This document shows, one piece after another, positions 3,948 to 48,753 of a DNA stretch of 55,890 nucleotides. Below the pieces are notes generated by a model that made no database searches, was not told where the DNA came from, and saw only the letters and a program-made list of their open reading frames with translations. The stretch is from Alphaproteobacteria bacterium (lineage in GTDB: Bacteria > Pseudomonadota > Alphaproteobacteria > Reyranellales > Reyranellaceae), in NCBI GenBank assembly GCA_016869975.1, contig VGCZ01000036.1, forward strand, positions 1 through 55,890, in the 5' to 3' direction. The translations under genes and the position numbers were made by a program. The stretch's first letter is position 1; every line of letters begins with the position of its first letter.

Positions 3948-5159
3948 ATGAGTACACCTCTCGAAGGCCTCCGCATCCTCGATCTCACCACTGTGCAGAT
4001 GGGCCCGTGGTGCACGCGCATCGCGGCCGACCTCGGCGCCGACGTGATCAAGGTCGAGGCGCCGGAAGGCGACTCCAGCCGTTACAGCAGCAGCGCGCGC
4101 CATCGCGGCATGGGTGGCGGCTTTCACCACAACGCGCGCGGCAAGCGCTCGATCGTGCTCGATCTGAAACAGAAGGCGGCGCGCGACGCGATTTTTCGGC
4201 TGGCCGCCAAGGTCGACGCGCTGGCCACCAATATCCGGCCGGCGGCGATGAAGCGGCTGGGGCTGGACTACGCCGCGGTGCGCACGGCCAATCCGTCGAT
4301 CGTCTATCTCAGCATGGTGGGCTACGGCAGCGGCGGGCGTTACGCCGGCCGGCCGGCCTATGACGACCTGATCCAGGCGGCGTCGGGCGTCACGACCCTG
4401 CTGCACCGATCGACCGGCGAGCAGCGCTTCATCCCGATGGCGGCGATCGATCGCATTGTCGGCGGCGCGGCAGCCAACGCGTTGCTCGCCGGCCTGCTGG
4501 CGCGCGCGCGTAAGGGTGTGGGCCAGCACATCGAAGTGCCGATGTTCGAGACCATGGCGCAGTTCGTGCTGGCCGAGCACATGCAGGGCTCGACCTTCGA
4601 TCCGCCACTCGGCCCGCCGGGCTACGCCCGCACCCTGTCGCGTTCGCGCAAGCCCTATGCGACGAAGGACGGCCACCTCGCCGTGCTGTGCTACAACGAC
4701 GGCCAGTGGCGGCGCTTCTTTGAGGCGGTCGGCAAGGGCGAGATGCTGCGCAGCGATCCGCGCTTCGCCGATATCGCCGCGCGCACCGCGCATATCGACC
4801 AGCTCTACGACATGGTCGCCGCCGAGGTGAAGGAGCGCACGACGGCGGAGTGGCTCAAGCTGCTGCACGAGATCGACATCCCGCACATGGTGCCGCACAC
4901 GCTGGAGACCTTGCTCGAGGATCCGCATCTCAAGGACAGCGGCTTCTTCGTCTTTGCGGATCATCCCTCGGAAGGCCGCATCCGCACCATGCGCGAGCCC
5001 AGCACCTGGTCCGAGACTGAACCGCCCACCGGCACCTTCGCGCCCCGCCTGGGCCAACATACCCGCGAGATTCTCGCCGAGGCCGGCTACGGTGAGGGTG
5101 AGATCGATGCGATGATCCGCGACAAGGTGGCGATCACCGACGGGGCGAAGCAGGGGTAG
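3948..5159 (+). CDS. Class III CoA-transferase (CaiB/BaiF family)
   Basis: A 403-residue member of the formyl-CoA/carnitine-CoA transferase family, which moves CoA between carboxylic acids. The N-terminus LRILDLTTVQMGPWCTRIAA, the following LGADVIKVEAPEGD and the RPAYDDLIQAASG segment (D139/D140, near the expected catalytic Asp) are family hallmarks. ATG at 3948 is preferred over in-frame starts upstream because family homology begins directly after it. There is no partner CoA-transferase or dehydrogenase beside it, so the acid substrate is unknown. Confidence 0.88.
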   Translation: MSTPLEGLRILDLTTVQMGPWCTRIAADLGADVIKVEAPEGDSSRYSSSARHRGMGGGFHHNARGKRSIVLDLKQKAARDAIFRLAAKVDALATNIRPAAMKRLGLDYAAVRTANPSIVYLSMVGYGSGGRYAGRPAYDDLIQAASGVTTLLHRSTGEQRFIPMAAIDRIVGGAAANALLAGLLARARKGVGQHIEVPMFETMAQFVLAEHMQGSTFDPPLGPPGYARTLSRSRKPYATKDGHLAVLCYNDGQWRRFFEAVGKGEMLRSDPRFADIAARTAHIDQLYDMVAAEVKERTTAEWLKLLHEIDIPHMVPHTLETLLEDPHLKDSGFFVFADHPSEGRIRTMREPSTWSETEPPTGTFAPRLGQHTREILAEAGYGEGEIDAMIRDKVAITDGAKQG

Positions 5160-5983: not shown

Positions 5984-6391
5984 ATGAAGAAGACGATTCT
6001 CGCGCTCGCGATCATGGGACTGTCGGGCATCGGATTCGCAGGCGCCGCCGTCGCCCAGACGCCGCGCCTGTCGGACATCCCGCCCGGCGCCATCCACACC
6101 CCGGGCATCGGTCCGGGCTACATCTTCCCGAGCTACGGCGTCTACAAGGCGATGAGCGACAACCCGCTGTCGGCGACATCGATGACGCTGGGTGCGGACA
6201 CGATGTCGGAGGCTGCGATCGATTCGGGCGAGGCGCATGCGCGGTCGATCCTGCGCGCCCAGGGCTTCACCGACGTGCGGGACCTGCGCCCGGGACCGAA
6301 CGGCTCGTGGAATGGCCAGGTGACTCGACGCGACGGCGCGGCGCTGGTCGGCGTCGATCGTGACGGCGTCGTCAGCCTCTACCAGCCGTAG
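5984..6391 (+). CDS. Small exported protein, PepSY-like C-terminus
   Basis: A 135-residue protein not recognised by name. Residues 1-25 form a Sec signal peptide (MKK, hydrophobic core, AVAQ cleavage site), so it is predicted periplasmic. The C-terminal 50 residues (ARSILRAQGFTDVRDLRPG and onward, ending in VDRDGVVSLYQP) have the helix-then-strands pattern of PepSY-type domains, though the match is weak. The ribosome site is GGAGGAGGGA. It converges with the hydrolase gene on the other strand with a gap of only ten bases. Confidence 0.75.
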   Translation: MKKTILALAIMGLSGIGFAGAAVAQTPRLSDIPPGAIHTPGIGPGYIFPSYGVYKAMSDNPLSATSMTLGADTMSEAAIDSGEAHARSILRAQGFTDVRDLRPGPNGSWNGQVTRRDGAALVGVDRDGVVSLYQP

Positions 6392-7507: not shown

Positions 7508-8005
7508 TCAGGACGCGGCGGCCGCGGGCGTGCGCTTGCCCGCCTGCCAGGCGCCCAGGATCTCATGCGCGTGACGCTCCGCGTTCATCGCCGCGTCATG
7601 GCCCGGCTTCTTCGCTGTGAGCTCGATGACGTAGCCGTTGGGATCGCGGAAATAGATCGAATCGATGAAGCCGTGGTTGGCGACGCCGCGCACCTCGCGA
7701 CCCTCGGCCTTGCCCTTGGCCAACATGTCCTGGAGCGCCCGTGGGCTGACCTCAAGCGCGATGTGCAGATCGAAATCGTGCTGATCCTTGAACTCGAAGG
7801 GCCGGTCGGGCGCCTCGAAGAAGGCAAGGCAGGAGCCGTCCTCCATGCGGAAGAAGGTGTGCAACACCGAGGTGTCGCGACCGGTCTTGGTCTCCTGGAT
7901 GTGCAGCGCGTGGGTGAGCGGCAGGCCGAGGAAATCCTCGTAGAAGGCCCGCGTTTCCTCGGAGTCTCGGCAGCGATAGGCGTTGTGGTGCAGGCCCTTG
8001 ATCAT
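7508..8005 (-). CDS. VOC/glyoxalase family protein
   Basis: A 165-residue vicinal-oxygen-chelate protein. It shows two beta-alpha-beta-beta-beta repeats: GLHHNAYRCRDSEETRAFYE at the start, FDLHIALEVS in the middle and the terminal metal-ligand strand DPNGYVIELT. His6/7, the central His and the final Glu are plausible metal ligands. Start ATG at 8005 is set by AAGGAGC seven bases upstream. The frame stays open through the neighbouring repeat, but that extension is repeat DNA and not homologous protein. Substrate unknown. Confidence 0.85.
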   Translation of the reverse strand: MIKGLHHNAYRCRDSEETRAFYEDFLGLPLTHALHIQETKTGRDTSVLHTFFRMEDGSCLAFFEAPDRPFEFKDQHDFDLHIALEVSPRALQDMLAKGKAEGREVRGVANHGFIDSIYFRDPNGYVIELTAKKPGHDAAMNAERHAHEILGAWQAGKRTPAAAAS

Positions 8006-8025
8006 GGTCACAGCTCCTTGGCTGT

Positions 8026-8158
8026 TACCTTCCCCGGCCTCGCGGGGGGAGAAGGTGCCCGAAGGGCGGATTGGGGGTGCCGGCATAGCGGTCAGTCACG
8101 GCAACGGGAATCGTAGCACGAACCACCCCCACCCGGCGCTTCGCGCCACCTTCCCCTG
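8026..8158. repeat. Full-length composite palindromic repeat, copy 1
   Basis: This copy lies between the VOC (minus) and UbiA (plus) genes. It opens with a C-rich/G-rich hairpin (ACCTTCCCC...GGGGGGAGAAGGT). The stretch from 8049 to about 8097 is nearly identical to the reverse complement of 15650-15700, including GCCGGCATAGCGGTCAGTC. It ends with CGCTTCGCGCCACCTTCCCC, matching the other end of the second copy. A further C-rich/G-rich palindrome follows to about 8216. It has the form of a short MITE-like element with inverted ends and encodes no protein. Confidence 0.8.
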
Positions 8159-8297
8159 CCTTCGGGCGCGCGAGCGCGCCCTTGGGGGACGGTCGGAGTC
8201 CCTCCCTTGGTAGGGGAGCGTAGCTACAGCCCCTAGTGTCCGGCTGGCTTTCAACCCCATGGTGTAGTATGCCGACACCGACACGACAGGAAGCCCC

Positions 8298-9176
8298 ATG
8301 AGCGTTCTGGCGATTGTCCGGCTGATCCGGCCGGAGCAGTGGGTGAAGAACGCGTTTGTCGTCGCGCCGCTGTTCTTCACGCCGGCGGCGCTGACTGTCG
8401 CCGGCCTGCGCAACGTCGCGCTGGGCGTCGCCTGCTTCTGCGCCGTCTCCAGCGCGGTCTACGTGCTGAACGACTATCGCGACCGCGAGTCCGACCGCAT
8501 GCACCCGCGCAAGAAGCACCGGCCGCTGGCGGCGGGCACCGTGGCGGTGCCGGTGGCCTTCGCCCTGATGGCGGCGCTGCTGGCCTTCGCGCTGGCAGGC
8601 GCCTTCCTGTGGCTGCCGCGCGCCTTCTTCTGGGTGGTGGCGCTCTACTTCGCGGTCAACGTCGCCTACACCTTCGGCCTGAAGTCGGTGGCGATCATCG
8701 ACGTCATGGTGATCGCGCTGGGCTTCGTCTTGCGCGTCGAGGGCGGCGCGTTCCTGATCGGCGTCGAGGCCAGCGCCTGGCTGATGATCGCCACCGGCCT
8801 GCTGGCGTTGTTCCTCGCCGTCGCCAAGAGGCGCGACGATCTCGTGCAGGGCCTCGATTCGAGCCACCGCAAGAGCATCGAGGGCTACACCAAGCCGTTC
8901 CTCGATTCGATCATCGCCGTGATCCTGGGCGCGCTCCTGGTGACCTACCTGATCTACGCCACCGACACCAACGTGATGCAGCGCCTGGGCACGACCAAGG
9001 TGTTCTACACCACGCCCTTCGTGGTCGCCGGCATCCTGCGCTACCTGCAGATCACCATGGTAGAGGAACGCTCCGGCTCGCCGACCCGCATCCTGCTCAC
9101 CGACCGTATGATCCTGTGGTGCGTGATCGGCTGGATCGCGACTTTCGTGGTGCTGATCTATGGCCGCGTGGCTTGA
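8298..9176 (+). CDS. UbiA-type decaprenyl-phosphate phosphoribosyltransferase-like
   Basis: A 292-residue polytopic membrane prenyltransferase. The first Asp-rich motif, NDYRDRESDRMHP (N58, D62, D66), followed by KKHRPLAAG, matches the DPPR synthase branch (Mycobacterium Rv3806c, Azorhizobium NoeC) better than ubiquinone or heme prenyltransferases. The second motif region is YTFGLKSVAIIDV. The known reaction of that branch transfers phosphoribose from PRPP to polyprenyl phosphate, the first step to polyprenyl-phosphoryl-arabinose. DprE1 and DprE2 homologues follow in the same cassette. Ribosome site AGGAAG precedes the ATG. Confidence 0.85.
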   Translation: MSVLAIVRLIRPEQWVKNAFVVAPLFFTPAALTVAGLRNVALGVACFCAVSSAVYVLNDYRDRESDRMHPRKKHRPLAAGTVAVPVAFALMAALLAFALAGAFLWLPRAFFWVVALYFAVNVAYTFGLKSVAIIDVMVIALGFVLRVEGGAFLIGVEASAWLMIATGLLALFLAVAKRRDDLVQGLDSSHRKSIEGYTKPFLDSIIAVILGALLVTYLIYATDTNVMQRLGTTKVFYTTPFVVAGILRYLQITMVEERSGSPTRILLTDRMILWCVIGWIATFVVLIYGRVA

Positions 9177-9181
9177 GGATT

Positions 9182-9209
9182 CCTTCTCTCCGCGTAGGCG
9201 GGGAGAAGG
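9182..9209. repeat. Short palindromic repeat within arabinose-lipid cassette
   Basis: A hairpin of the CCTTCTCTCCGC/GCGGGGAGAAGG type fills most of the 42-base gap between the UbiA-like and flippase-like genes. Its right arm lies about 10 bases before the ATG at 9219 and probably doubles as ribosome binding site. Confidence 0.7.
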
Positions 9210-9218
9210 CAAAGACCC

Positions 9219-10214
9219 ATGACCGCGCCTCGGTCGGGCCCCGAGGCCTGGCGGCGGCGGGCCGTGTGGTGGTTCGCGGGCGGTCTGCTGGCGTCGATTC
9301 TCGTCGCCACCGCGGTCTTCGCCTTCGGCGAGTCGAAGACGATGGTTGAGACCATCGGCAAGATCAGCCCCGGCGTCGTGCTCGGCTGCCTCGGACTGTC
9401 GCTGGTCAACTACGGCGCGCGCGCGTTGCGCTGGCACCTCTACACGCGCGGCCTGGGGCTGGGCGTGAGCCTGCCGCGCGACACGCTGTACTACGTCGCC
9501 GGCTTCGCCATGACCGTGACACCGGGCAAGATCGGCGAGGCGCTGCGCCTGTGGTTCCTGCGCCGTGGCCACGGGCATGGCTACGAGCGCACCCTGGCGC
9601 TGATCGCCGCCGACCGCATCGCCGACGCCACCGCCCTGGTGCTGATCGCGCTCATCGGCATCGCGCTCCTGCAAGCCAGCGTCGTGGCGATCGCGCCGAT
9701 GGCCGTCATCACTCTGATCGCCGTGTTCCTCGCGGTGCGCCCGCGCTACCTCGCGATCATGGTAGGCTGGGGCTATGGCGTCGTGCGGCGCTGGCCCAGG
9801 CTGTTCGGCCGCCTGCGCATCGCGGTCAAGCAATTGGCCAAGCTCGGCTCGCCGTGGCGTCTGATGGCGGCGCTGCTGCTCTCGCTCGTCGGCTGGTTCG
9901 CCGAGGTAATCCAGGTCTGGTGGGTGGTGCGCGCGCTGGGCGGCGCCATCGATATCTGGGGCGCGGCGGTGGCCTTCGCGGTGTCGATGGTGCTGGGCTC
10001 GGCGACCATGCTGCCCGGCGGGCTGGGTGGCACGGAGATCGGCATGGTGGCGTTGCTGACGCAGCGTGGCGTGTCGTTCGAGATCGCGGTGACGACCACG
10101 GCGCTCGTGCGCGTGACGACGCTGTGGTTCTCGGTGGCGCTGGGCATGGGATTCCTGCCGCTCGCCATGCGGCGCGTCACGGCTGACGGCAAGATCCGGG
10201 GGGCGACGGCATGA
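9219..10214 (+). CDS. Flippase-like membrane protein (LPG synthase TM/UPF0104 family)
   Basis: A 331-residue integral membrane protein with about seven to eight hydrophobic segments. Family marks are LSLVNYGARALRWHLYTRGL, TPGKIGEALRLWFLR near residue 105 and the conserved loop LPGGLGGTEIGMVALL near residue 265. There is no soluble lysyl-transferase domain. The family includes proteins implicated in moving or modifying lipid-linked substrates. Its place between the UbiA-like and DprE1-like genes suggests it handles the polyprenyl-linked pentose. It overlaps the next gene by four bases (ATGA). Confidence 0.82.
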   Translation: MTAPRSGPEAWRRRAVWWFAGGLLASILVATAVFAFGESKTMVETIGKISPGVVLGCLGLSLVNYGARALRWHLYTRGLGLGVSLPRDTLYYVAGFAMTVTPGKIGEALRLWFLRRGHGHGYERTLALIAADRIADATALVLIALIGIALLQASVVAIAPMAVITLIAVFLAVRPRYLAIMVGWGYGVVRRWPRLFGRLRIAVKQLAKLGSPWRLMAALLLSLVGWFAEVIQVWWVVRALGGAIDIWGAAVAFAVSMVLGSATMLPGGLGGTEIGMVALLTQRGVSFEIAVTTTALVRVTTLWFSVALGMGFLPLAMRRVTADGKIRGATA

Positions 10215-11536
10215 TGTGGAAGACCGCCACCTTCAGCGGCTGGGGACGGCTGCCCTACGGCACCTGCGAGGCGGCGCGGCCGGAGCGGCTGTCGCAATTG
10301 CGCGCGGCGATGACCGGCGGCGGGGCGGGAACCGTGATCGCGCGCGGCCTGGGCCGCAGCTACGGCGATTGCGCCGTCAACGAGGGCGGCCGCCTGGTGC
10401 TGACCGAGCGGCTTGATCGCCTGGTAAGCTTCGACGCCACGACGGGCGAGGTCGTCGTCGAGGCGGGCATCAGCCTGCGCAGCCTGCTCGATATCTTCCT
10501 GCCGCGCGGCTTTATCGTGCCGGTCTGCCCGGGCTCGGCCTTCGTCACCGTGGGCGGTGCGATCGCCAACGACGTGCACGGCAAGAACCACGAGAAGGAC
10601 GGAGCCTTCGCCGCGCATGTCGGGTGGTTCGAGCTGATGCTGCCCGATGGCGAGATCGTCCGGGTGTCGCGCGAGAGCGACGCGGCGCTGTTCGACGCCA
10701 CCGTGGGCGGCATCGGGCTGACCGGCATCATCGTCACCGCCTGCCTGCGCCTGACCCGTGTGCCGTCCAACGCGCTGATCGTGCGCGAGCGGCCGGTGCC
10801 CGATCTCGACGCGCTGCTGGCCAAGCTGCACGAGGAGGCGAGCGCCACCTACTCGGTGGCCTGGTTCGACGCGCTGGCCGGCGGCGGCGGCCTGGGCCGC
10901 GGCATCGTCGAGACGGCGACGGTGTCGCCCACCAGCATCCAGATCAAGCCACGCAAGGCCAGGAGTCTGCCGATCACGCCGCCGTCGCTGGTGCTCAATC
11001 CGCTGTCGGTGCGCGCCTTCAACGCGCTCTATCGCGCGCGCATGCCGAGCAATGGCCGCGAGAGCCTGCGCGGCTACGACAAGTTCCTGTTCCCGCTCGA
11101 CTCGCTGCGGGGCTGGAACCGCATGTACGGCAAGCCCGGCTTCCGCCAGTTCCAGAGCATCGTACCGGCCGCCGCGCTGGTGCCGCTGCTCGAACGCATC
11201 CGCGCGTCGCGCGCCGGCTCCTTCCTCGCGGTGCTCAAGGCGATGGGGCCGGCCGGGACGGGCATGCTGGCCTTTCCGATGGCGGGCTACGCCGTGGCGC
11301 TCGACTTCCCCAACCGGCCAGGTGTCGTCGAGCTGCTGGGCGACCTCGAACGCATCACGCTGGAGCATGGCGGCCGCGTCTATCTCGCCAAGGATTCCTG
11401 CCTCTCGGCGCAGGGTTTCGCCGCGATGTATCCGCGCCTGCCCGAGTTCCAGGACGTGCTCGAGCGCGTCGATCCGAAGCGGCGGCTGGGTTCGACCATG
11501 TCCAGACGGCTGGGAATCCGCGGAGGCGCGCCATGA
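10211..11536 (+). CDS. dprE1: DprE1-like decaprenylphosphoryl-ribose 2'-oxidase
   Basis: A 441-residue FAD oxidase of the VAO fold. The FAD domain has RGLGRSYGDCAVNEGG (about residues 45-60), PGSAFVTVGGAIANDVHGKN (108-126) and GGIGLTGIIV. His123 corresponds to mycobacterial His132 and Lys394 (YLAKDS) to the catalytic Lys418. The residue aligned with the benzothiazinone target Cys387 is Ala363 (GYAVALDFP). The C-terminus RRLGSTMSRRLG also matches DprE1. In mycobacteria DprE1 makes the 2-keto intermediate that DprE2 reduces. The gene is coupled to dprE2 by ATGA. Confidence 0.9.
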   Translation: MMWKTATFSGWGRLPYGTCEAARPERLSQLRAAMTGGGAGTVIARGLGRSYGDCAVNEGGRLVLTERLDRLVSFDATTGEVVVEAGISLRSLLDIFLPRGFIVPVCPGSAFVTVGGAIANDVHGKNHEKDGAFAAHVGWFELMLPDGEIVRVSRESDAALFDATVGGIGLTGIIVTACLRLTRVPSNALIVRERPVPDLDALLAKLHEEASATYSVAWFDALAGGGGLGRGIVETATVSPTSIQIKPRKARSLPITPPSLVLNPLSVRAFNALYRARMPSNGRESLRGYDKFLFPLDSLRGWNRMYGKPGFRQFQSIVPAAALVPLLERIRASRAGSFLAVLKAMGPAGTGMLAFPMAGYAVALDFPNRPGVVELLGDLERITLEHGGRVYLAKDSCLSAQGFAAMYPRLPEFQDVLERVDPKRRLGSTMSRRLGIRGGAP

Positions 11537-12279
11537 CCATGTCCCGCTGGCTGATCCTGGGCGCCACCTCGCCGATCGCGCGTGAGTTCGCACGGGTGGC
11601 CGCCGCCTCCGGCGCCGACATCGTGCTCGCCGGGCGCGACATGGAGGACATGGAGCGCAGCGCCGCCGACATTCGGGCGCGCAGCGAGCGCGCCGTGTCG
11701 GTGGTCGAGTTCGATGCGCTCGACATGGCCGCGCACGAGGCCTTCGTGCGCCGCTTCGACGAGGGCGGCGAGGGGTCGGTTGGCGTGTTCGTCGCCTTCG
11801 GCTTCATGCCCTCGCAAGCCGAGATCGACGCCACTCCCGAGCTCGGCGCGCATGTCATCAACGCCAACTTCACTGGCGCGGCCTCGGTCCTGCTGTGGCT
11901 CAAGCCGGTGCTGGAGAAGCGCAAGGGCGTGGTCGTGGTGCTGGGTTCGGTGGCCGGCGACAGGGGGCGGGCGTCGAATTACACCTACGGCTCGGCCAAG
12001 GCGGGGCTGCACACCTTCCTGCAGGGGCTGCGCATCGTGCTGGGTCGTTCCGGCGTGCGGGTGATCAACATCAAGCCGGGCTTCATCGACACCGGCATGA
12101 GCTGGGGCAACGTCAAGGACGGCCCGTTGATGGCTGAGCCCAGGGCGCTGGCCGAACGGGCGCTGAAGCTGGCCGACGGCAAGGGCGAGGGCGAGTCCTA
12201 CTTCCCCTGGTTCTGGTTCGTCATCATGACCATCATCAAATCAGTGCCCTACAAGATCTTCCGCAAGCTGCCGATCTGA
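11533..12279 (+). CDS. dprE2: DprE2-like short-chain reductase
   Basis: A 248-residue SDR. The nucleotide-binding start is WLILGATSPIARE (residues 6-18), the active site is VLGSVAGDRGRASNYTYGSAKAG with Ser139, Tyr152 and Lys156, and the PG motif is INIKPGFIDTGM. A hydrophobic C-terminus (FPWFWFVIMTIIKSVPYKIF) resembles DprE2 and would hold it at the membrane. It should reduce the keto product of DprE1 to polyprenyl-phosphoryl-arabinose. Start ATG 11533 overlaps the dprE1 stop; the frame extends upstream but there it is antiphase to dprE1. Confidence 0.88.
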   Translation: MTMSRWLILGATSPIAREFARVAAASGADIVLAGRDMEDMERSAADIRARSERAVSVVEFDALDMAAHEAFVRRFDEGGEGSVGVFVAFGFMPSQAEIDATPELGAHVINANFTGAASVLLWLKPVLEKRKGVVVVLGSVAGDRGRASNYTYGSAKAGLHTFLQGLRIVLGRSGVRVINIKPGFIDTGMSWGNVKDGPLMAEPRALAERALKLADGKGEGESYFPWFWFVIMTIIKSVPYKIFRKLPI

Positions 12280-12495
12280 CACGAAACGAACCGATATTTG
12301 CGGAATGCAAAATGATCTGATTCTGTTTCTCATATTAGTTTAATAAAACTATATAAATAATTGATATATAATGCATATTTGTATATGCTAGGCACGTATG
12401 TGTCGCCGTGCGCACATCGCGCAAACCTTCTCAAACGCCATCATTTCGACGCTCCTAGGGGCGGATTTCGGGGGTGTCGAGCCGAAGCGCGTACA
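12280..12495. other. A+T-rich intergenic stretch
   Basis: No gene is visible. From about 12290 to 12395 the sequence is strikingly A+T-rich (ATTAGTTTAATAAAACTATA and similar runs) in a window that is otherwise G+C-rich throughout. The change is abrupt on both sides. It follows the end of the arabinose-lipid cassette and precedes a phage-type gene, which suggests acquired DNA or a silenced promoter region. Confidence 0.8.
12361..12389 (+). promoter_or_regulatory. Sigma70-like promoter candidate
   Basis: TTGATA at 12361-12366 and TATGCT at 12384-12389 are separated by exactly 17 bases, matching 5/6 and 4/6 of the vegetative consensus. Transcription would start near 12396, 100 bases before the terminase-like gene. 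A+T-rich DNA yields such matches by chance more easily, so this is a candidate only. Confidence 0.4.
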
Positions 12496-13359
12496 ATGGC
12501 GTCCATGACGACCACCGAACCTGCGAAACCCACCGACCGCCTCTCGCCGCGCCACGCCCGCTTCGTGGCGGCCTACCTCGAGGACTTCAACGCCACCCAC
12601 GCCTATATCCGCGCCGGCTACAGCCCGCAGAGCGCCGCGGGCAACGCGTCGCGGCTGCTGCACCGGCCGGAGATCGCGGCGGCGATCGCCGACGGCAAGC
12701 GGCGCCTCACGCGGGCGCTGGCGATCGGTCCCGAGCGCATGGCCAGGGAATACGCCCGCATCGCCTTCGCCAATATCGACGACTTTGTAGATGTCGACGC
12801 CGACGGCGGCGTGCGCATCGACCTGGCCAGGGCGGATCGCGCCCAGCGGGCGGGGCTGGTCGACCTCACGGTCATCGAGGGCACCGAGTCGCGACCGCGG
12901 CGGGTGCGGATCAAGCTGGACAAGCTGCGCGCGCTCGACCAGCTGACCAAGCGGCTCGACCTGTTCGGCGAGAAGCCGGCGCCGGAGGTCTCGGCGGAAG
13001 AGCAGGGACGATTTCGGGAGGTGGTCGAGGGCCTGCAGCGAGTGCTGCGGTTCGAGCGCGAGCGGCGCATCGAGCTGGAGCGCCAGCTCGGGCTGGCGCA
13101 GGCGCCACCCGAGCCCGAGCCCGAACTCAAGCCCGAGCCGGAGATTCTCGAGGAGCCCGAGGCGGAGCCGATCGTGCTGCGGGGATTGGGTCCGCCCGAT
13201 CCGCCGCACCTGGCGGCCCCCATCTTGTGGCGCCACGTGTCCGGCTTGCATCCGAACGCCAAGATCATCAGTTCGGGCGGACGGAAGCCCGGCGACCCGC
13301 CGGACTCCTACGAAGCATTGAAGCAATGGGCGACAGCTTCCCCACCGAGGCGAAGGTGA
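12496..13359 (+). CDS. Orphan terminase small-subunit-like protein
   Basis: A 287-residue protein. Residues 16-70 match the DNA-binding helix-turn-helix domain of phage terminase small subunits (LSPRHARFVAAYLEDFNATH, then AYIRAGYSPQSAAGNASRLL). The middle part (residues 70-160) fits the family oligomerisation region. The tail is unusual: a Pro-Glu rich stretch (EPEPELKPEPEILEEPEAEP, about residues 205-225) followed by a Gly/Pro-rich end. No large terminase, portal or capsid gene is nearby, so it is a phage remnant or a domesticated DNA-binding protein. ATG 12496 is chosen; ATG 12505 is possible. Confidence 0.8.
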   Translation: MASMTTTEPAKPTDRLSPRHARFVAAYLEDFNATHAYIRAGYSPQSAAGNASRLLHRPEIAAAIADGKRRLTRALAIGPERMAREYARIAFANIDDFVDVDADGGVRIDLARADRAQRAGLVDLTVIEGTESRPRRVRIKLDKLRALDQLTKRLDLFGEKPAPEVSAEEQGRFREVVEGLQRVLRFERERRIELERQLGLAQAPPEPEPELKPEPEILEEPEAEPIVLRGLGPPDPPHLAAPILWRHVSGLHPNAKIISSGGRKPGDPPDSYEALKQWATASPPRRR

Positions 13360-13392: not shown

Positions 13393-13749
13393 ATGCGACG
13401 AGCGAGTGGTTGGGTCATAGCGGCGCTGTGCCTGTCGGCCTGTGCCGACGAGGCGGCCGAGCAGGTGGTAACGGTGCGGTCCGATCCGCCCGGCGCCTCC
13501 TGCCAGGTCACGCGGGACAACCTCTCGGTCGGCGCCGTGCCGGCGACACCGGGGAGCATCAGGGTGACCAAGGGCACCGCGCCGCTGATCGTGGCCTGCT
13601 CGCTGTCGGGTTACGAGACAATCACCGGCGGCTTCGAGGCGCGCTACCGCGGCGGCAACCTGTTCGCCGCACGCGGCGGCGGGCCGCCGGCGGTCGACCC
13701 GCGCGACTATTCCTATGCCGACGAGCTGATGATCACCTTGCGACGGTAA
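13393..13749 (+). CDS. Small predicted lipoprotein, PEGA-like
   Basis: A 118-residue protein with a lipoprotein signal: charged start MRR, hydrophobic core and lipobox LSAC, with Cys18 as lipidation site. The mature part begins with VVTVRSDPPGASCQVTRDN, the strand-turn pattern of PEGA domains, and contains a second Cys pair candidate (VACSLSGYE). It is probably anchored in the outer or inner membrane facing the periplasm. Function unknown. Ribosome site GAGGA lies eight bases upstream. Confidence 0.75.
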   Translation: MRRASGWVIAALCLSACADEAAEQVVTVRSDPPGASCQVTRDNLSVGAVPATPGSIRVTKGTAPLIVACSLSGYETITGGFEARYRGGNLFAARGGGPPAVDPRDYSYADELMITLRR

Positions 13750-19633: not shown

Positions 19634-20533
19634 ATGTCCTCGGAAGACCTCGGCTTCTTGTGGGCGCTGCTCGTCAACGGCGCCTCGATCGGCCTGATGT
19701 ACGCGCTGATCGCGCTCGGCTTCGTGCTCGTCTACAAGGCGACCGACGCGATCAACTTCGCGCAGGGCGAGTTCGTGATGCTGGCCTCGTTCGCCGCCGC
19801 GCTGGCGCTGGGCATCGGCGGCATGCCGGTGATCGCCGCGGTGCTGCTGGCGGTCGCGCTGATGATCGGCTTCAGCTTCGGTCTCGAACGCGTCGTGCTG
19901 CGCCCGCTGCTCGGCCGGCCGGTCGTCGCCGTCATCATGGCCACGATCGGCCTGGCGGCCATGCTGCGCGGCCTGCCGCCGATCACGATCGGCGGCGAGA
20001 CGCGCGCCCTGCCGCTGCCGGTCGGCGACGAGCCGGTCCGCCTCGGCGCCGCCAGCCTGCCGCCGATCCAGGTCGTCGGCGCCATCGTCGCGGTGCTGTT
20101 CTTCGTCGCCTTCACCTGGTTCTTCAAGAAGAGCCGCATGGGCGTGGCGATGCGCGCGGTGGCCGACAATCAGCAGGTCGCCATGGCCATGGGCATCAAC
20201 GTCGAGCGCTATTTCGCGCTGGCGTGGGCGATGGCGGGCATCGTCTCGGCGCTGGGCGGCGTCCTGTGGGGCAGCATGCTGGGCGTCGACGTGCACGTCG
20301 CGGTCATCGGCCTGAAGGTCTTTCCCGTCGTGATCCTGGGCGGCCTCGACTCGATCGGCGGCGCGCTGGTCGGCGGGCTGATCATCGGCATCGTCGAGTC
20401 GCTGGCGGCCGGCTACCTCGACCCCTATGTCGGCGGCGGCACGAAGGACTTCGCGCCTTATCTCCTCATGATCCTCGTGCTGATGTTCCGACCCTACGGA
20501 ATCTTCGGCAAGCGCAAGATCGAACGCGTCTAG
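19634..20533 (+). CDS. livH: Branched-chain-type ABC permease LivH
   Basis: A 299-residue permease with about eight hydrophobic helices. LivH features include GLMYALIALGFVLVYKATDA at the start, INFAQGEFVML, and the docking loop MRAVADNQQVAMAMGINVER near residue 175. The late GGLDSIGGALVGGLIIGIVE is also typical. The start is ATG 19634, with GAGGAGGGGC upstream, 11 bases after the ligase stop. Confidence 0.93.
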   Translation: MSSEDLGFLWALLVNGASIGLMYALIALGFVLVYKATDAINFAQGEFVMLASFAAALALGIGGMPVIAAVLLAVALMIGFSFGLERVVLRPLLGRPVVAVIMATIGLAAMLRGLPPITIGGETRALPLPVGDEPVRLGAASLPPIQVVGAIVAVLFFVAFTWFFKKSRMGVAMRAVADNQQVAMAMGINVERYFALAWAMAGIVSALGGVLWGSMLGVDVHVAVIGLKVFPVVILGGLDSIGGALVGGLIIGIVESLAAGYLDPYVGGGTKDFAPYLLMILVLMFRPYGIFGKRKIERV

Positions 20534-30469: not shown

Positions 30470-31558
30470 CTACGGCATAGTAGCGCGCTGGATACGCCGT
30501 TCGTCGAGGCCCACGGAGCGGGCGGTGGCGACGAGGCTCGCCCAGGTGTCGTCAGGCAGCGGTATGCCTTCGGCGTTGCGCTTGGCGCGGTAGTGGATCT
30601 CCTGCTCGCCGGGTACCAGCACCTCCTCGTCGGCGCTCACCGGTTTGGAGCCCTTCACGAAGGCGGTGTAGCGGTCGACCTCCGGCCCGAAGAAACCGCT
30701 GGGATCGACCACCTTGGGATCGACGTAGAACGAGAACATGCCATTGGCGAAGGGGCGGTCGAACGCCGTGGCGCCGTTGCCGCTGAGCGCGCCGCCGAGC
30801 AGCTCGCACATGAAGGCGAGGCCCGAGCCCTTGTGCTCGCCGAAGGCGCGGATCGCGCCCTTGCTCTTGCGGTGATCGCGCGGACCCTCGGGCGTATACT
30901 CGCCGTAGAGCACGTGCGGGTCGCCGCTCGCCCTGCCGTCCTGGTCGATCAACGCGTCGTCGGGCACCGGCTTGCCGCCCTGGCTGGCGACCAGCACCTT
31001 GCCCTCGGCGACGATCGAGGTGGCGAAGTCGAGGACCAGCGGGTCGCGGCCGGGGCGGGGGATGCCGACGCAATAGGGCGCGGTCGAGAACCGCCGATCG
31101 ACGCCGCCATAGGGCGCCACCAGCACCGAGCCGGCGGCGTTGACGAAGTGCACCGAGACCAGCCCTTCGGCCGCGGCCATTTCGGCCCAATCGCCGGTGC
31201 GGCCGGTGTGGCCGGCGTTGCGCAGGGCCACGGCGGAGAGCCCGTTGCGCTTGCACTTGTCGATGCCGATGCGCACGGCCTGCGGGCCCACGGTCTGGCC
31301 GAAGCCGAACTTGCCGTCGACCACCGCCAGCACCGGCGTGTCGACCAGCACGTCGACCACGACGTCGGGGTGGATCACCTTGTCGACCAGGGTCTTCACA
31401 TAGCGCGGCACGCGGATGACGCCATGGCTGTCGTGGCCGGTGAGGTTCGACTCGACCAGGTACTGGCCGATGCGTTGGGCCTCGGCCGCCGAGCATCCCG
31501 CGGTGGCGAAGATGTCTCGGACAAATTCCTTGAGATTCAAAGGCTTGATCGTGACCAT
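30470..31558 (-). CDS. Ldh-family (malate/lactate type) NAD(P) dehydrogenase
   Basis: A 362-residue type-2 malate/L-lactate/ureidoglycolate dehydrogenase family protein. Family marks are TGHDSHGVIRVPRY (residues 40-53), RNAGHTGRTGDWAEMAAAEG near 115, APYGG and the Gly-rich FGEHKGSGLAFMCELLGGAL near 245. The family reduces 2-keto acids or oxidises 2-hydroxy acids. Pairing with the sugar-acid dehydratase suggests a step in aldonate or hydroxy-acid use. It is the first gene of a minus-strand pair. Confidence 0.9.
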   Translation of the reverse strand: MVTIKPLNLKEFVRDIFATAGCSAAEAQRIGQYLVESNLTGHDSHGVIRVPRYVKTLVDKVIHPDVVVDVLVDTPVLAVVDGKFGFGQTVGPQAVRIGIDKCKRNGLSAVALRNAGHTGRTGDWAEMAAAEGLVSVHFVNAAGSVLVAPYGGVDRRFSTAPYCVGIPRPGRDPLVLDFATSIVAEGKVLVASQGGKPVPDDALIDQDGRASGDPHVLYGEYTPEGPRDHRKSKGAIRAFGEHKGSGLAFMCELLGGALSGNGATAFDRPFANGMFSFYVDPKVVDPSGFFGPEVDRYTAFVKGSKPVSADEEVLVPGEQEIHYRAKRNAEGIPLPDDTWASLVATARSVGLDERRIQRATMP

Positions 31559-31594
31559 GGACCTGGCTCGTCACACTGTGTAGGGGATGGTGAA

Positions 31595-31622
31595 TGGACG
31601 TTGAACGGCGTTCAGCCTATAT
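31595..31622 (+). promoter_or_regulatory. Promoter with palindromic operator candidate before desaturase gene
   Basis: A perfect odd palindrome TGAACG-G-CGTTCA (31602-31614) lies inside the spacer of a possible promoter, TGGACG at 31595-31600 and CTATAT at 31617-31622 (16-base spacer). It sits between the divergent Ldh-type (minus) and desaturase (plus) genes, 30 bases before the desaturase ATG. Repressor control of one or both is suggested. Confidence 0.4.
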
Positions 31623-31651
31623 GGAAGCCCCCTTTGAAGAGGACTGACCGG

Positions 31652-32644
31652 ATGGTCGCCGATACTGCGCCCAACGCGGCGTTCACCCACAGCGACACGC
31701 CGCTGCCGCACCCGGAGCGGGCGAAGCGGATTCTGGCGGCGCATCCCGAGGTGCGCGCACTGTTCGAGCGCGATCCCTGGTCGGTGTTGTGGACGGTGTT
31801 GCTGGTGGCGCTGCAGGTCGGCGTCGCGATCGGGCTGACGCTGCTCGACGCGCCGTGGTGGGCGATCGTACTCGCCGCTTACGTCGTCGGCGCCTTCGTC
31901 AATCATGCCCTGTTCGTGCTGATCCACGACTACACGCACAACGCCATCTTCAAGACCGCCAACGCCAATCGCCTGGGCTCGATCCTCGCCAATGTCCCGA
32001 TCGTCTTTCCGGCGGCGATCGGCTTTCGCAATTACCACCTGCTGCACCACAAGTATCTCGGCATCCCCGGCCTCGACGCCGACGTGCCGACGCAGAACGA
32101 GGCGCGCTGGGTGGGCAATAGTCCGTGGCGCAAGACGTTCTGGCTCAGCATGTTCTGGGCGGTGCAGGGCATCCTGCGGCCGACCACGGTGAAGGCGATC
32201 CGCACCGTCGACGGCTGGGTGGTGTTCAACGCCTTGGCCATGGCGGCGGCGATGGCGCCGATCGTCTGGTTCTTCGGCTGGTGGCCGGTCGCCTACCTGT
32301 TCCTGTCGACGATCTTCTCCCTTGGCGTGCACCCGGTGGGCGCGCGCTGGATCCAGGAGCACTATGTGTTCAAGGAAGGGCAGGAGACCTATTCCTATTA
32401 CGGCCCGCTGAACAAGCTGTCGTTCAACATGGGCTACCACAACGAGCACCACGACTTCCCGCAGGTGCCGTGGTCGAGGCTGCCGGCGGTACGCGCGGCG
32501 GCGCCGGAATTCTACGACCACCTCTATCACCACAAATCGTGGACCAGGCTGCTGTTCCACGTGCTCTTCAGCCGCAAGTTCCGGCTGCACAATCGCATCG
32601 TGCGGCCAATGCCCGAGGGCATGAAGGACGTGGTCGCGGTGTGA
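31652..32644 (+). CDS. Dihydroceramide Delta4-desaturase-like membrane desaturase
   Basis: A 330-residue membrane di-iron desaturase. His boxes are HDYTH (92-96), HLLHH (129-133) and HNEHH (263-267). The region around the third box (EHYVFKEGQETYSYYGPLNK, then FNMGYHNEHHDFPQVPW) is close to human/plant DEGS enzymes. The N-terminal segment TDTPLPHPERAKRILAAHPE-like (residues 14-33) matches the sphingolipid desaturase N-terminal domain. Four or more hydrophobic helices are present. It would insert a trans double bond in a ceramide or related long-chain lipid. No sphingolipid synthesis genes lie in the window. Confidence 0.88.
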   Translation: MVADTAPNAAFTHSDTPLPHPERAKRILAAHPEVRALFERDPWSVLWTVLLVALQVGVAIGLTLLDAPWWAIVLAAYVVGAFVNHALFVLIHDYTHNAIFKTANANRLGSILANVPIVFPAAIGFRNYHLLHHKYLGIPGLDADVPTQNEARWVGNSPWRKTFWLSMFWAVQGILRPTTVKAIRTVDGWVVFNALAMAAAMAPIVWFFGWWPVAYLFLSTIFSLGVHPVGARWIQEHYVFKEGQETYSYYGPLNKLSFNMGYHNEHHDFPQVPWSRLPAVRAAAPEFYDHLYHHKSWTRLLFHVLFSRKFRLHNRIVRPMPEGMKDVVAV

Positions 32645-42924: not shown

Positions 42925-43383
42925 GTGCAGCCGATCTCCCTCTTGATCGCGGGATTGCTTTGCGCGGCAGGACTAACAGCGATGCCGGCGTCAACCACTG
43001 CTGTGACACCAGCAAAGCTATCTATCGAGGTTTTCTTTGACGCAAACTCCAGCGACCTGAACGAAGTTGCGAGAAGCACGCTTCGCAGGGAGATTCCGGC
43101 AATACGCTGGGATCGTGGGTGCCGCAATATTCGTGTGGCCGGCCATTTGGACGGGGCTGAAGCAAAGGCCGGGAAAGCCGGCGCACTTGACCGGCAACGA
43201 GCAGCTAACGTCCGAGATGTTCTCCAGAAATTTGGTTTCCTTGACCGAGTTATTGACACGTTCGCCTACGGCAGCGACCTGCCACTGGTTTATCGACGTG
43301 ATGCCATGCAGAGGCTGATTGTTTCCGATCACGAGCCTCAGAATCGGCGAGCCGAGGTCCATTGGAGTTGCAGGATTCCATAG
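42925..43383 (+). CDS. Exported OmpA-like domain protein
   Basis: A 152-residue protein (from GTG 42925; TTG 42892 would add 11 residues). A hydrophobic signal-like start (LLIAGLLCAAGLTAMPAS) is followed by an OmpA C-terminal-type domain. Visible elements are IEVFFDANSSDL, IRVAGHLDGAEAKAG, ALDRQRAANVRDVLQKFG and a final NRRAEV. It probably binds peptidoglycan in the periplasm. Codon use is less G+C-biased than in the flanking catabolic genes, suggesting separate origin. It starts right after the hydantoinase stop. Confidence 0.7.
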   Translation: MQPISLLIAGLLCAAGLTAMPASTTAVTPAKLSIEVFFDANSSDLNEVARSTLRREIPAIRWDRGCRNIRVAGHLDGAEAKAGKAGALDRQRAANVRDVLQKFGFLDRVIDTFAYGSDLPLVYRRDAMQRLIVSDHEPQNRRAEVHWSCRIP

Positions 43384-43561
43384 AACCGCTGGATCGGCGT
43401 TCTCAGAGGAGATCACCAGTTGCCGGCCACCTCGGACTCGCCGTCGCGACGTTGGGGCTGATCCTTATCCGGCAGTAAAGCGTCGTCGGTGAGACGACAG
43501 CAGGCATCGAATGGTGCGCGGCTATCGCCTACAGATTCGCCAAGAATGTCACGCTTTGCTA

Positions 43562-47910: not shown

Positions 47911-48753
47911 ATGTTTCACAGACTCGCTGCGGCGGCCGCCGCCGCGCTGATCCTGGCGTCGCCGGCTTTCGCCCAGGACAAGCTGCCGCCCTTGCGTACC
48001 GGGGTCGACGGCACCTTCGCGCCGCACGCCATGCCCAAGCTGGGCGGCGGCACCGAGGGCTTCCAGATCGACCTGTTCACCGAGGTGGCCAAGCGCATGA
48101 AGCGCGAGATCATCATCGATTCGGTGAGCTTCTCGACTCTGATTCCTGGTATGCAGGCCGGCCGCTACGACTTCATCGCCGCGCCGACCACGGTGACCCG
48201 CGAGCGCGCCGAGAACATGCTGTTCACCGCCGGCTATCTGTGGACCGCCTTCCAGTTCGGCATCAAGAAGGGCTCCACGCCGCTCAAGGGCTGGGAGGAC
48301 CTCAAAGGCAAGGCCGTGTCGGTCAACAAGGGCACGCCCTACGAGAAGCTCAGCAAGGAGATGGGCTAGAAGCACGGCTTCACCGTGCAGGTCTACGACA
48401 CCCAGCCCGACGCTACCCAGGCGGTAATCGCCGGCCGCGCCTACGCGACCTTGGGCGGCAACACCACCATCGTCTATGCCGCCAGCAGGAACCCGCAATT
48501 CGCCGCTGACCTTGAGCTCAAGGAGACGCGCGCGCACTGGGCGGCGCCGGTACCGAAGACCAACCCGGCCTTGCGCAAGGAGCTGCAGGACACCATCAAC
48601 TGCATGAAGAAGGACGGCACGATCGTGAAGATGTCGACCAAGTGGTTCGGTCGCGAGCCACCGGCCGACGCGCTGGAGCGGGTGATCACGCCGGGCTACG
48701 GCCCGCCGGATATGCCGGGCTACGATCCGACGCCGCACGATTTGAAGTGCTGA
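47911..48753 (+). pseudogene. Polar amino-acid ABC binding protein with in-frame TAG
   Basis: A 280-codon frame for a family 3 binding protein, interrupted by TAG at 48367-48369. The start is a Sec signal (MFHRLAAAAAAALILASPAF, then AQ). Family regions are GTEGFQIDLFTEVAKRM and FDFIAAPTTVTRERAENML-like before the stop, and AVIAGRAYATLGGNTTIVYA after it. Both sides are in the same frame and match one continuous protein, so a single base change (for example TGG to TAG) explains it. The importer genes downstream are intact. Confidence 0.85.

Follow-up and report, generated by a model that had tools for sequence, protein, structure and literature searches.

Organization of the locus

The window analysed here is a whole contig of 55,890 nucleotides (C36) in a 4.84-Mb genome of 96 contigs, from an alphaproteobacterium of the family Reyranellaceae. 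It contains an operon of four intact genes in the same direction (8298–12279, forward strand), three of which encode relatives of the enzymes that supply lipid-linked D-arabinose and one a membrane protein of the flippase-like family PF03706 (LPG_synthase_TM). The first gene (8298–9176) specifies a 292-residue UbiA-fold polyprenyl-phosphate 5-phosphoribosyltransferase, that is, a decaprenyl- or polyprenyl-phosphoryl-phosphoribose (DPPR or PPPR) synthase, with no fused HAD phosphatase. The gene for the PF03706 protein (331 residues; 9219–10214) follows after 42 bases, and those for a DprE1-like FAD oxidase (441 residues; 10211–11536) and a DprE2-like reductase of the short-chain dehydrogenase/reductase (SDR) class (248 residues; 11533–12279) are joined to it and to one another by 4-base overlaps, the oxidase–SDR junction being an ATGA overlap. 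A consensus scan of positions 8000–12600 gave no terminator-like site. These coordinates and families agree with a preliminary description of the window, made from the sequence without database searches, which had recognized four tightly packed genes for UbiA-type, flippase-like, DprE1 and DprE2 proteins.

Enzymes of the operon

The UbiA protein is of the Rv3806c type. It scores 83 bits with the Pfam UbiA model and 249.5 bits with the NCBIfam model for decaprenyl-phosphate phosphoribosyltransferase (NF008977; cut-off 234), about seven times the scores obtained with the models for heme O synthase (36 bits) and ubiquinone UbiA (35 bits). A quinone or heme enzyme is rejected on these scores, and the protein scores as a DPPR synthase, in line with the preliminary description. 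The best match in the PDB is the DPPR synthase 8j8j (E = 7e-36), with 93 of 272 aligned residues identical. The motif NDYRDRESD, also noticed earlier, spans residues 58–66, and its N58, D59, D62 and D66 align with N73, D74, D77 and D81 of the 8j8j chain; the pattern NDxxDxxxD is described as comprising conserved residues of polyprenyl-phosphate phosphoribosyltransferases (PMC11127046).

The best PDB matches of the oxidase are DprE1 structures (E = 1e-83; 179 of 425 aligned residues identical), and its nearest named relative, at 90% identity, comes from a Reyranellaceae metagenome-assembled genome. His123 and Lys394 align with the catalytic His132 and Lys418 of DprE1, and counterparts of Tyr60 and Gln336 are also present; among 70 oxidase homologues, His132 is kept in 69 and Lys418 in 65. 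Three DprE1 residues are replaced in the window oxidase: Cys387 by alanine (Ala363), Tyr314 by leucine and Asn385 by alanine. Cys387 is reported to be the covalent target of nitro-benzothiazinones and dispensable for activity (PMC6128881), and its position is occupied in the 70 homologues by Ala (60), Ser (5), Thr (3), Val (1) or Cys (1). As to whether the oxidase might lie outside the DprE1 clade, the gap in the PDB search between DprE1 (284 bits) and other flavin oxidases (59 bits) favours DprE1; these are pairwise scores only, and the DprE1 tree discussed below holds DprE1 homologues only.

The SDR has the Tyr-x3-Lys signature within YGSAK at residues 152–156 (Tyr152 and Lys156), as first noted, and is paired with the DprE1-like gene. 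Its score with PRK07102 is 238 bits (cut-off 267). The oxidase reaches 400.7 against a cut-off of 500 for the NCBIfam DprE1 model (NF053785), and the SDR 164.3 bits against 250 for the DprE2 model (NF053786); because both miss these equivalog cut-offs, we name them DprE1-like and DprE2-like. Alignment with solved enzymes, akin to the check proposed earlier, matches the key residues both of the UbiA protein with 8j8j and of the oxidase with DprE1. From these families and residues, the operon very probably makes polyprenyl-phosphate D-arabinofuranose from 5-phosphoribosyl-1-pyrophosphate.

The PF03706 protein and the flippase position

The product of the second gene exceeds the PF03706 cut-off (136.6 versus 33.4 bits) and scores 82.5 bits with TIGR00374, which upholds its description as a flippase-like membrane protein. 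In 70 DprE1 loci we used our own profiles to count the genes lying up to 4 kb from the oxidase; left out of this set are L026–L028 (the same records as L041, L042 and L044), L034 (the same as L119) and the short or partial L033 and L040. A UbiA score threshold was used in place of the 'HAD+UbiA' profile labels, which cannot be relied on because the HAD profile had drifted towards UbiA, and L145 and L055 may be mis-sorted. Genes labelled 'MATE' in these counts are Wzx-like proteins (PF13440 in L029), not the four-helix type called MATE in PMC11127046.

A PF03706 gene occurs in 12 of the 70 loci, 10 with a short UbiA and two with a HAD-fused UbiA, in cassettes of five families besides that of the window. 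GtrA-type genes occur in 17 (nine short, eight fused), and a Wzx-like gene accompanies a fused UbiA in six loci of one clade. A further 21 loci (16 short, five fused) have UbiA and none of the three carrier types, and 14 have no UbiA nearby. By profiles, PF03706, GtrA and Wzx-like genes never coincide within 4 kb. Pfam confirms PF03706 in all eight loci tested (the window, L121, L123–L126, L129 and L149) and GtrA in all five (L134, L136, L138, L156 and L157). The order UbiA–PF03706–DprE1 holds in 11 of the 12 PF03706 loci, the PF03706 gene coming first in L149, and in L136, L151, L156 and L157 a GtrA gene lies between UbiA and DprE1, in the slot that PF03706 occupies in the window. The PF03706 label changes five times on the DprE1 tree, three changes being forced by well-supported branches; the gene has therefore been gained or lost more than once.

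Among the papers listed by literature searches, which left subscription journals mostly outside their coverage, none was seen to tie PF03706 to the polyprenyl-phosphate-arabinose pathway. The second gene looks new, though PMC11127046 may already contain a PF03706 case. We propose that its product may represent an additional flippase type acting on polyprenyl-phosphate pentoses, here polyprenyl-phosphate arabinose. Locus L127, counted among those without a carrier, has a 122-residue four-helix protein that reads by eye as EmrE-like (4684–5052), two genes upstream of UbiA–DprE1, and this protein may serve there as the flippase.

Two genomes that belong to a single family have a gene for a HAD-fused UbiA (identified by eye) divergent from a PF03706 gene and away from DprE1 (L189, 2274–4912; L190, 5809–8440). 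These pairs may be the counterpart of this system for ribose.

Distribution

DprE1-like genes (E no greater than 1e-40) occur in 23 of 61 genomes (the window's own and 60 relatives), including all four of the window's genus. The complete quartet is found in each of these four and in the sole sampled genome of a second genus. In the three congeners the four proteins are 82–95% identical to those of the window (in L042 the start of the contig cuts the UbiA gene), and the conserved quartet is therefore not a product of chance. Two congeners have the same flanking genes on either side of the operon; the third, in which the contig starts within UbiA, has those downstream. Across the class, a DprE1-like oxidase was found in 51 of 385 sampled alphaproteobacterial genomes, in searches that, like those for the PF03706, A1 and L131 proteins described below, limited scoring in each genome to the three to five candidates ranked best at first look. 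The preliminary description regarded the gene set as best known from mycobacteria and Azorhizobium; it is not confined there, given these counts and the Gram-negative pathway described in 2024 by Kelly and colleagues (PNAS; PMC11127046). In a tree of the 70 DprE1-like proteins with the mycobacterial one, the window oxidase falls in a group of five whose sister group consists of six Roseomonadaceae/Acetobacteraceae proteins, with a support of 99 from a quick method (the Shimodaira–Hasegawa-like approximate likelihood ratio test only).

Relatives of the PF03706 protein (E up to 1e-15) occur in 19 of the 385 genomes, from 11 families. Sixteen of the 19 are DprE1-positive, against about 2.5 expected (hypergeometric 6e-13, uncorrected for kinship). 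The surroundings of DprE1 were covered in 43 of the 51 positive genomes (all except G101, G109, G209, G263, G319, G326, G373 and G396). The PF03706 gene lies beside DprE1 or UbiA in 11 of the 16; in G326, G373 and G403 its neighbour is UbiA.

Candidate transferases

In genome G266 a 535-residue membrane protein, here called A1, is encoded divergently beside the cassette. Relatives of A1 (E up to 1e-15) were found in nine of the 385 genomes, from five families, and all nine are DprE1-positive (hypergeometric 7e-9, uncorrected). Only in G266 and G287 does the gene lie close to the cassette; among the seven remaining genomes, the draft of G107 has both of them at the ends of contigs. A profile built from eight members matches 12 of 27 DprE1-positive genomes, eight of which are its own sources, and none of 10 negative genomes. 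All eight members share an invariant Glu-Asp near the N-terminus, mostly as TEDGYY, and a QxGxLG...DGKVN stretch near the C-terminus. Neither of the two members scanned has a Pfam family over cut-off. We regard A1 as a putative family of type C glycosyltransferases (GT-C) and, from its distribution and sequence, as a candidate arabinosyltransferase.

Multi-helix proteins of two kinds adjoin DprE1/DprE2 in six Reyranellaceae loci of genus g3 (for instance L047, 5773–7395, and L057, 7433–8683) and are likewise candidate GT-C proteins; neither kind has a Pfam family, and the one used as a query is absent from the window's genome. A GT-C-like protein of L131 was found in one of the 385 genomes, its own. 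There is no credible PDB match for the A1 profile, the L131 protein or the genome candidate L079.

In G164, a gene that reads by eye like an undecaprenyl-phosphate sugar-phosphate transferase adjoins an A1-type GT-C gene (L202, 5881–7344), a hint at a glycan acceptor.

Comparison with known systems

A Pfam scan at E up to 0.001 covered 53 distinct open reading frames (ORFs) of the window, some being shadow frames; five called genes lie outside it (5984–6391, 13393–13749, 19634–20533, 43021–43416 and 48385–48750). No glycosyltransferase or pilin family was found among the scanned ORFs, nor any phosphatase family, the rest of the genome not having been searched for the last. For the scanned ORFs this agrees with the earlier statement that the window has no arabinosyltransferase or phosphatase gene. 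As to the companion statement that it has no Nod gene, three proteins belong to PF01522 (15725–16720, 50892–51821 and 51848–52717), the family that includes NodB, with which they were not compared.

The closest described parallel is the three-component system for alpha-pentofuranoses in Citrobacter, which in the account of PMC11127046 combines a synthase and a GT-C enzyme (GT136) with a proposed flippase; DprE1/DprE2 homologues are reported there where the glycan contains arabinofuranose (Araf). The window operon resembles the Citrobacter youngae O1/O2 system and its Araf relatives in its UbiA-type polyprenyl phosphoribose synthase and in a lipid donor that would be flipped for periplasmic transfer. 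The epimerizing step of the O2 system and the DprE1/DprE2 homologues reported for Araf glycans are further points of likeness. By the same account, the Citrobacter synthase carries a fused HAD phosphatase, whereas the window protein has 292 residues and no HAD part; the proposed Citrobacter flippase is a four-helix protein compared there to EmrE/ArnE, whereas a PF03706 protein takes the flippase place in the window; and the Citrobacter GT-C gene is in the same locus, whereas none was seen among the scanned ORFs here. Neither a fused or adjacent phosphatase (53 ORFs) nor a small EmrE/ArnE-like or SMR-type flippase was found. The operon appears to correspond to the donor half of a three-component system, but a phosphatase, the known flippase family and a local GT-C are lacking in the window; it is best described as a variant and not a plain member.

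The mycobacterial decaprenyl-phosphoryl-arabinose (DPA) pathway (Rv3806c, Rv3807c, DprE1, DprE2 and Rv3789) shares the DPPR synthase and the DprE1/DprE2 pair. It differs in having Cys387 in DprE1, where the window oxidase has alanine. PMC11127046 describes Rv3789 as SMR-type and Rv3807c as a phosphatase, and the window operon has no protein of either kind. In the alphaproteobacterium Azorhizobium caulinodans, noeCHOP is likewise a set of four consecutive genes, of which noeC, noeH and noeO are likened to mycobacterial arabinose-precursor genes in PMC2443382; as described there, it lies in a nod operon and serves Nod-factor arabinosylation, a likeness drawn from descriptions and not from compared sequences. 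Pseudomonas paraeruginosa provides another Gram-negative D-Araf supply with a ubiA gene, in which the pilin and TfpW genes are involved (PMC11841053, PMC12369383); it too is likened by description only, and no pilin family is seen among the window's scanned ORFs. D-arabinose is also reported in a polysaccharide of the alphaproteobacterium Devosia (PMC8707391).

Proposed function and alternatives

We consider it likely that the operon forms a self-contained unit for the supply of a lipid-linked arabinose donor, with flipping by the PF03706 protein and periplasmic transfer by a GT-C enzyme. Read from the sequences, the synthase product would lose its 5'-phosphate to a phosphatase encoded elsewhere, and the DprE1-like oxidase and DprE2-like reductase would invert C2 by oxidation followed by reduction to give polyprenyl-phosphate D-arabinofuranose. 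The lipid would next cross to the periplasmic side by way of the PF03706 protein, and a GT-C enzyme whose gene lies elsewhere would there attach the arabinose to an envelope glycan, lipid or protein. Enzyme families and residues support the DPA-type cassette of the preliminary description, with the product predicted from sequence. A wider reading, which we hold only tentatively and with more doubt than conviction, is that this PF03706 subfamily is a further polyprenyl-phosphate-pentose flippase standing in for the GtrA/SMR and EmrE-like types, and that stand-alone cassettes with unlinked GT-C enzymes arabinosylate a basic envelope component, and not a variable O antigen or pilin, in several alphaproteobacterial families.

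Several observations weigh against the donor-supply proposal, and some of them would suit a different division of labour, in which the three enzymes make polyprenyl-phosphate arabinose, GtrA or another carrier encoded elsewhere flips it, and the PF03706 protein moves phospholipids or hopanoids or handles an acceptor lipid. NCBIfam-named relatives of the protein are phospholipid flippases (MprF and the glucosaminyl-phosphatidylglycerol (GlcN-PG) flippase). The four-sequence AlphaFold model is poor (mean predicted local distance difference test score, pLDDT, 62.7); its top three PDB matches are all Pseudomonas aeruginosa MprF, at E values of 1.5e-3 to 2.7e-3 with none under 0.001, and by sequence there is no credible PDB match. 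MprF, which also contains a synthase domain, transports aminoacyl-phosphatidylglycerol; the window protein shares its Pfam family and TIGR00374, and at 331 residues corresponds to the flippase-type region only. By profile, PF03706, GtrA and Wzx-like carriers are also missing within 4 kb in the 21 loci noted above. The tendency of PF03706 and GtrA to exclude one another is weak (p = 0.025, or 0.12 counting L126, uncorrected for kinship): in L126 a gene that looks GtrA-like by eye lies about 3 kb from the PF03706 cassette, in a divergent GT2-like set, and in L149 a Wzx-like gene lies slightly beyond the 4-kb range.

The linkage of PF03706 itself is incomplete. The gene is unlinked in five of the 16 DprE1-positive genomes (G065, G123, G309, G325 and G402), and three genomes of the subfamily have no DprE1 (G093, G233 and G237). 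In the PF03706 tree the linked copies do not form one clade, and the linked copy of L149 (G328) pairs with the unlinked copy of the DprE1-negative G237. Some unlinked genes adjoin trpS-like or gyrA-like genes, as judged by eye, and the unlinked copies in DprE1-positive genomes are probably paralogues. Those of G309 and G402 pair with copies of DprE1-negative relatives and therefore probably have a separate function. Against a different job for the PF03706 protein stand its strong co-occurrence with DprE1, the slot that it shares with GtrA in four loci, and the GT2-like genes (identified by eye) that adjoin unlinked copies in L194 (G309) and L196 (G237); such neighbours resemble other polyprenyl-phosphate sugar systems and fit a general role in polyprenyl-phosphate sugar transport. 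On this evidence we regard the different job as unlikely.

The donor-supply proposal also has to reckon with the scores of the oxidase and reductase under the equivalog cut-offs, with a phosphatase that was not seen among the scanned ORFs of the window, and with the transferase step. The genome check for GT-C arabinosyltransferases suggested in the preliminary description yielded, in the window's genome, only three weak PMT_2 proteins, two of them under the Pfam cut-off. The A1 profile has no match there at E 0.001, with a partial match in the congener G001; a Reyranella-type candidate is absent from this genome, and a Siccirubricoccus-type candidate had no match anywhere, in a search run without a positive control.

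If the oxidase and reductase have drifted from DprE1 and DprE2, the lipid could instead carry another pentose, either ribose or a keto or other epimer. This reading would account for the scores of both enzymes under the equivalog cut-offs and for the replacement of Tyr314, Asn385 and Cys387. It appears improbable in view of the retention of His132 and Lys418 in nearly all homologues, the overlap of the oxidase and reductase genes in the window and the reported non-essentiality of Cys387. That the operon is a decaying relic without present function is very improbable: no transferase or phosphatase was seen beside it in the scanned ORFs, but its four frames are intact, its proteins are conserved in congeners next to the same genes, to the extent that the contigs cover them, and it has two overlapping stop–start junctions.

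D-arabinose lipids typify the mycobacterial wall and serve as a drug target in mycobacteria; our data suggest that such lipids are not rare in a large Gram-negative class. This kind of pathway has already been described in Gram-negatives (PMC11127046) and the oxidase occurs in 51 of 385 genomes. The gene set itself is of a known kind and not rare in the class; what deserves further attention is the recurrence of the PF03706 gene and the putative transferase family. The analysis also provides a few membrane proteins as candidates for arabinose transfer. According to PMC11127046, direct evidence of flippase activity is missing for the Citrobacter protein and Rv3789, and a candidate gene that accompanies the pathway opens this step to testing.

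Flanking genes

The operon is surrounded by transport and catabolism genes, among them ABC and TRAP transporters, a CoA transferase, a PhyH dioxygenase and amidohydrolases. Two genes (c118 and c119) that recur near some cassettes were rejected as cassette partners, since they read as a TAXI-type TRAP transporter. An AT-rich gap (12280–12460) follows the operon, with a G+C content of 0.387 compared with 0.668 for the window. An orphan ORF directly 3' of the operon (12361–13359, forward strand) encodes the small-subunit domain of a phage terminase (PF03592, 86.9 bits); a relative occupies the same place in the congener locus L041 and was not seen there in two other congeners. Further downstream, an ORF at 30593–32641 (forward strand), whose called start is probably too far upstream, combines fatty-acid desaturase and sphingolipid Delta4-desaturase N-terminal domains (PF00487 and PF08557), a combination that to our knowledge is unusual in bacteria.

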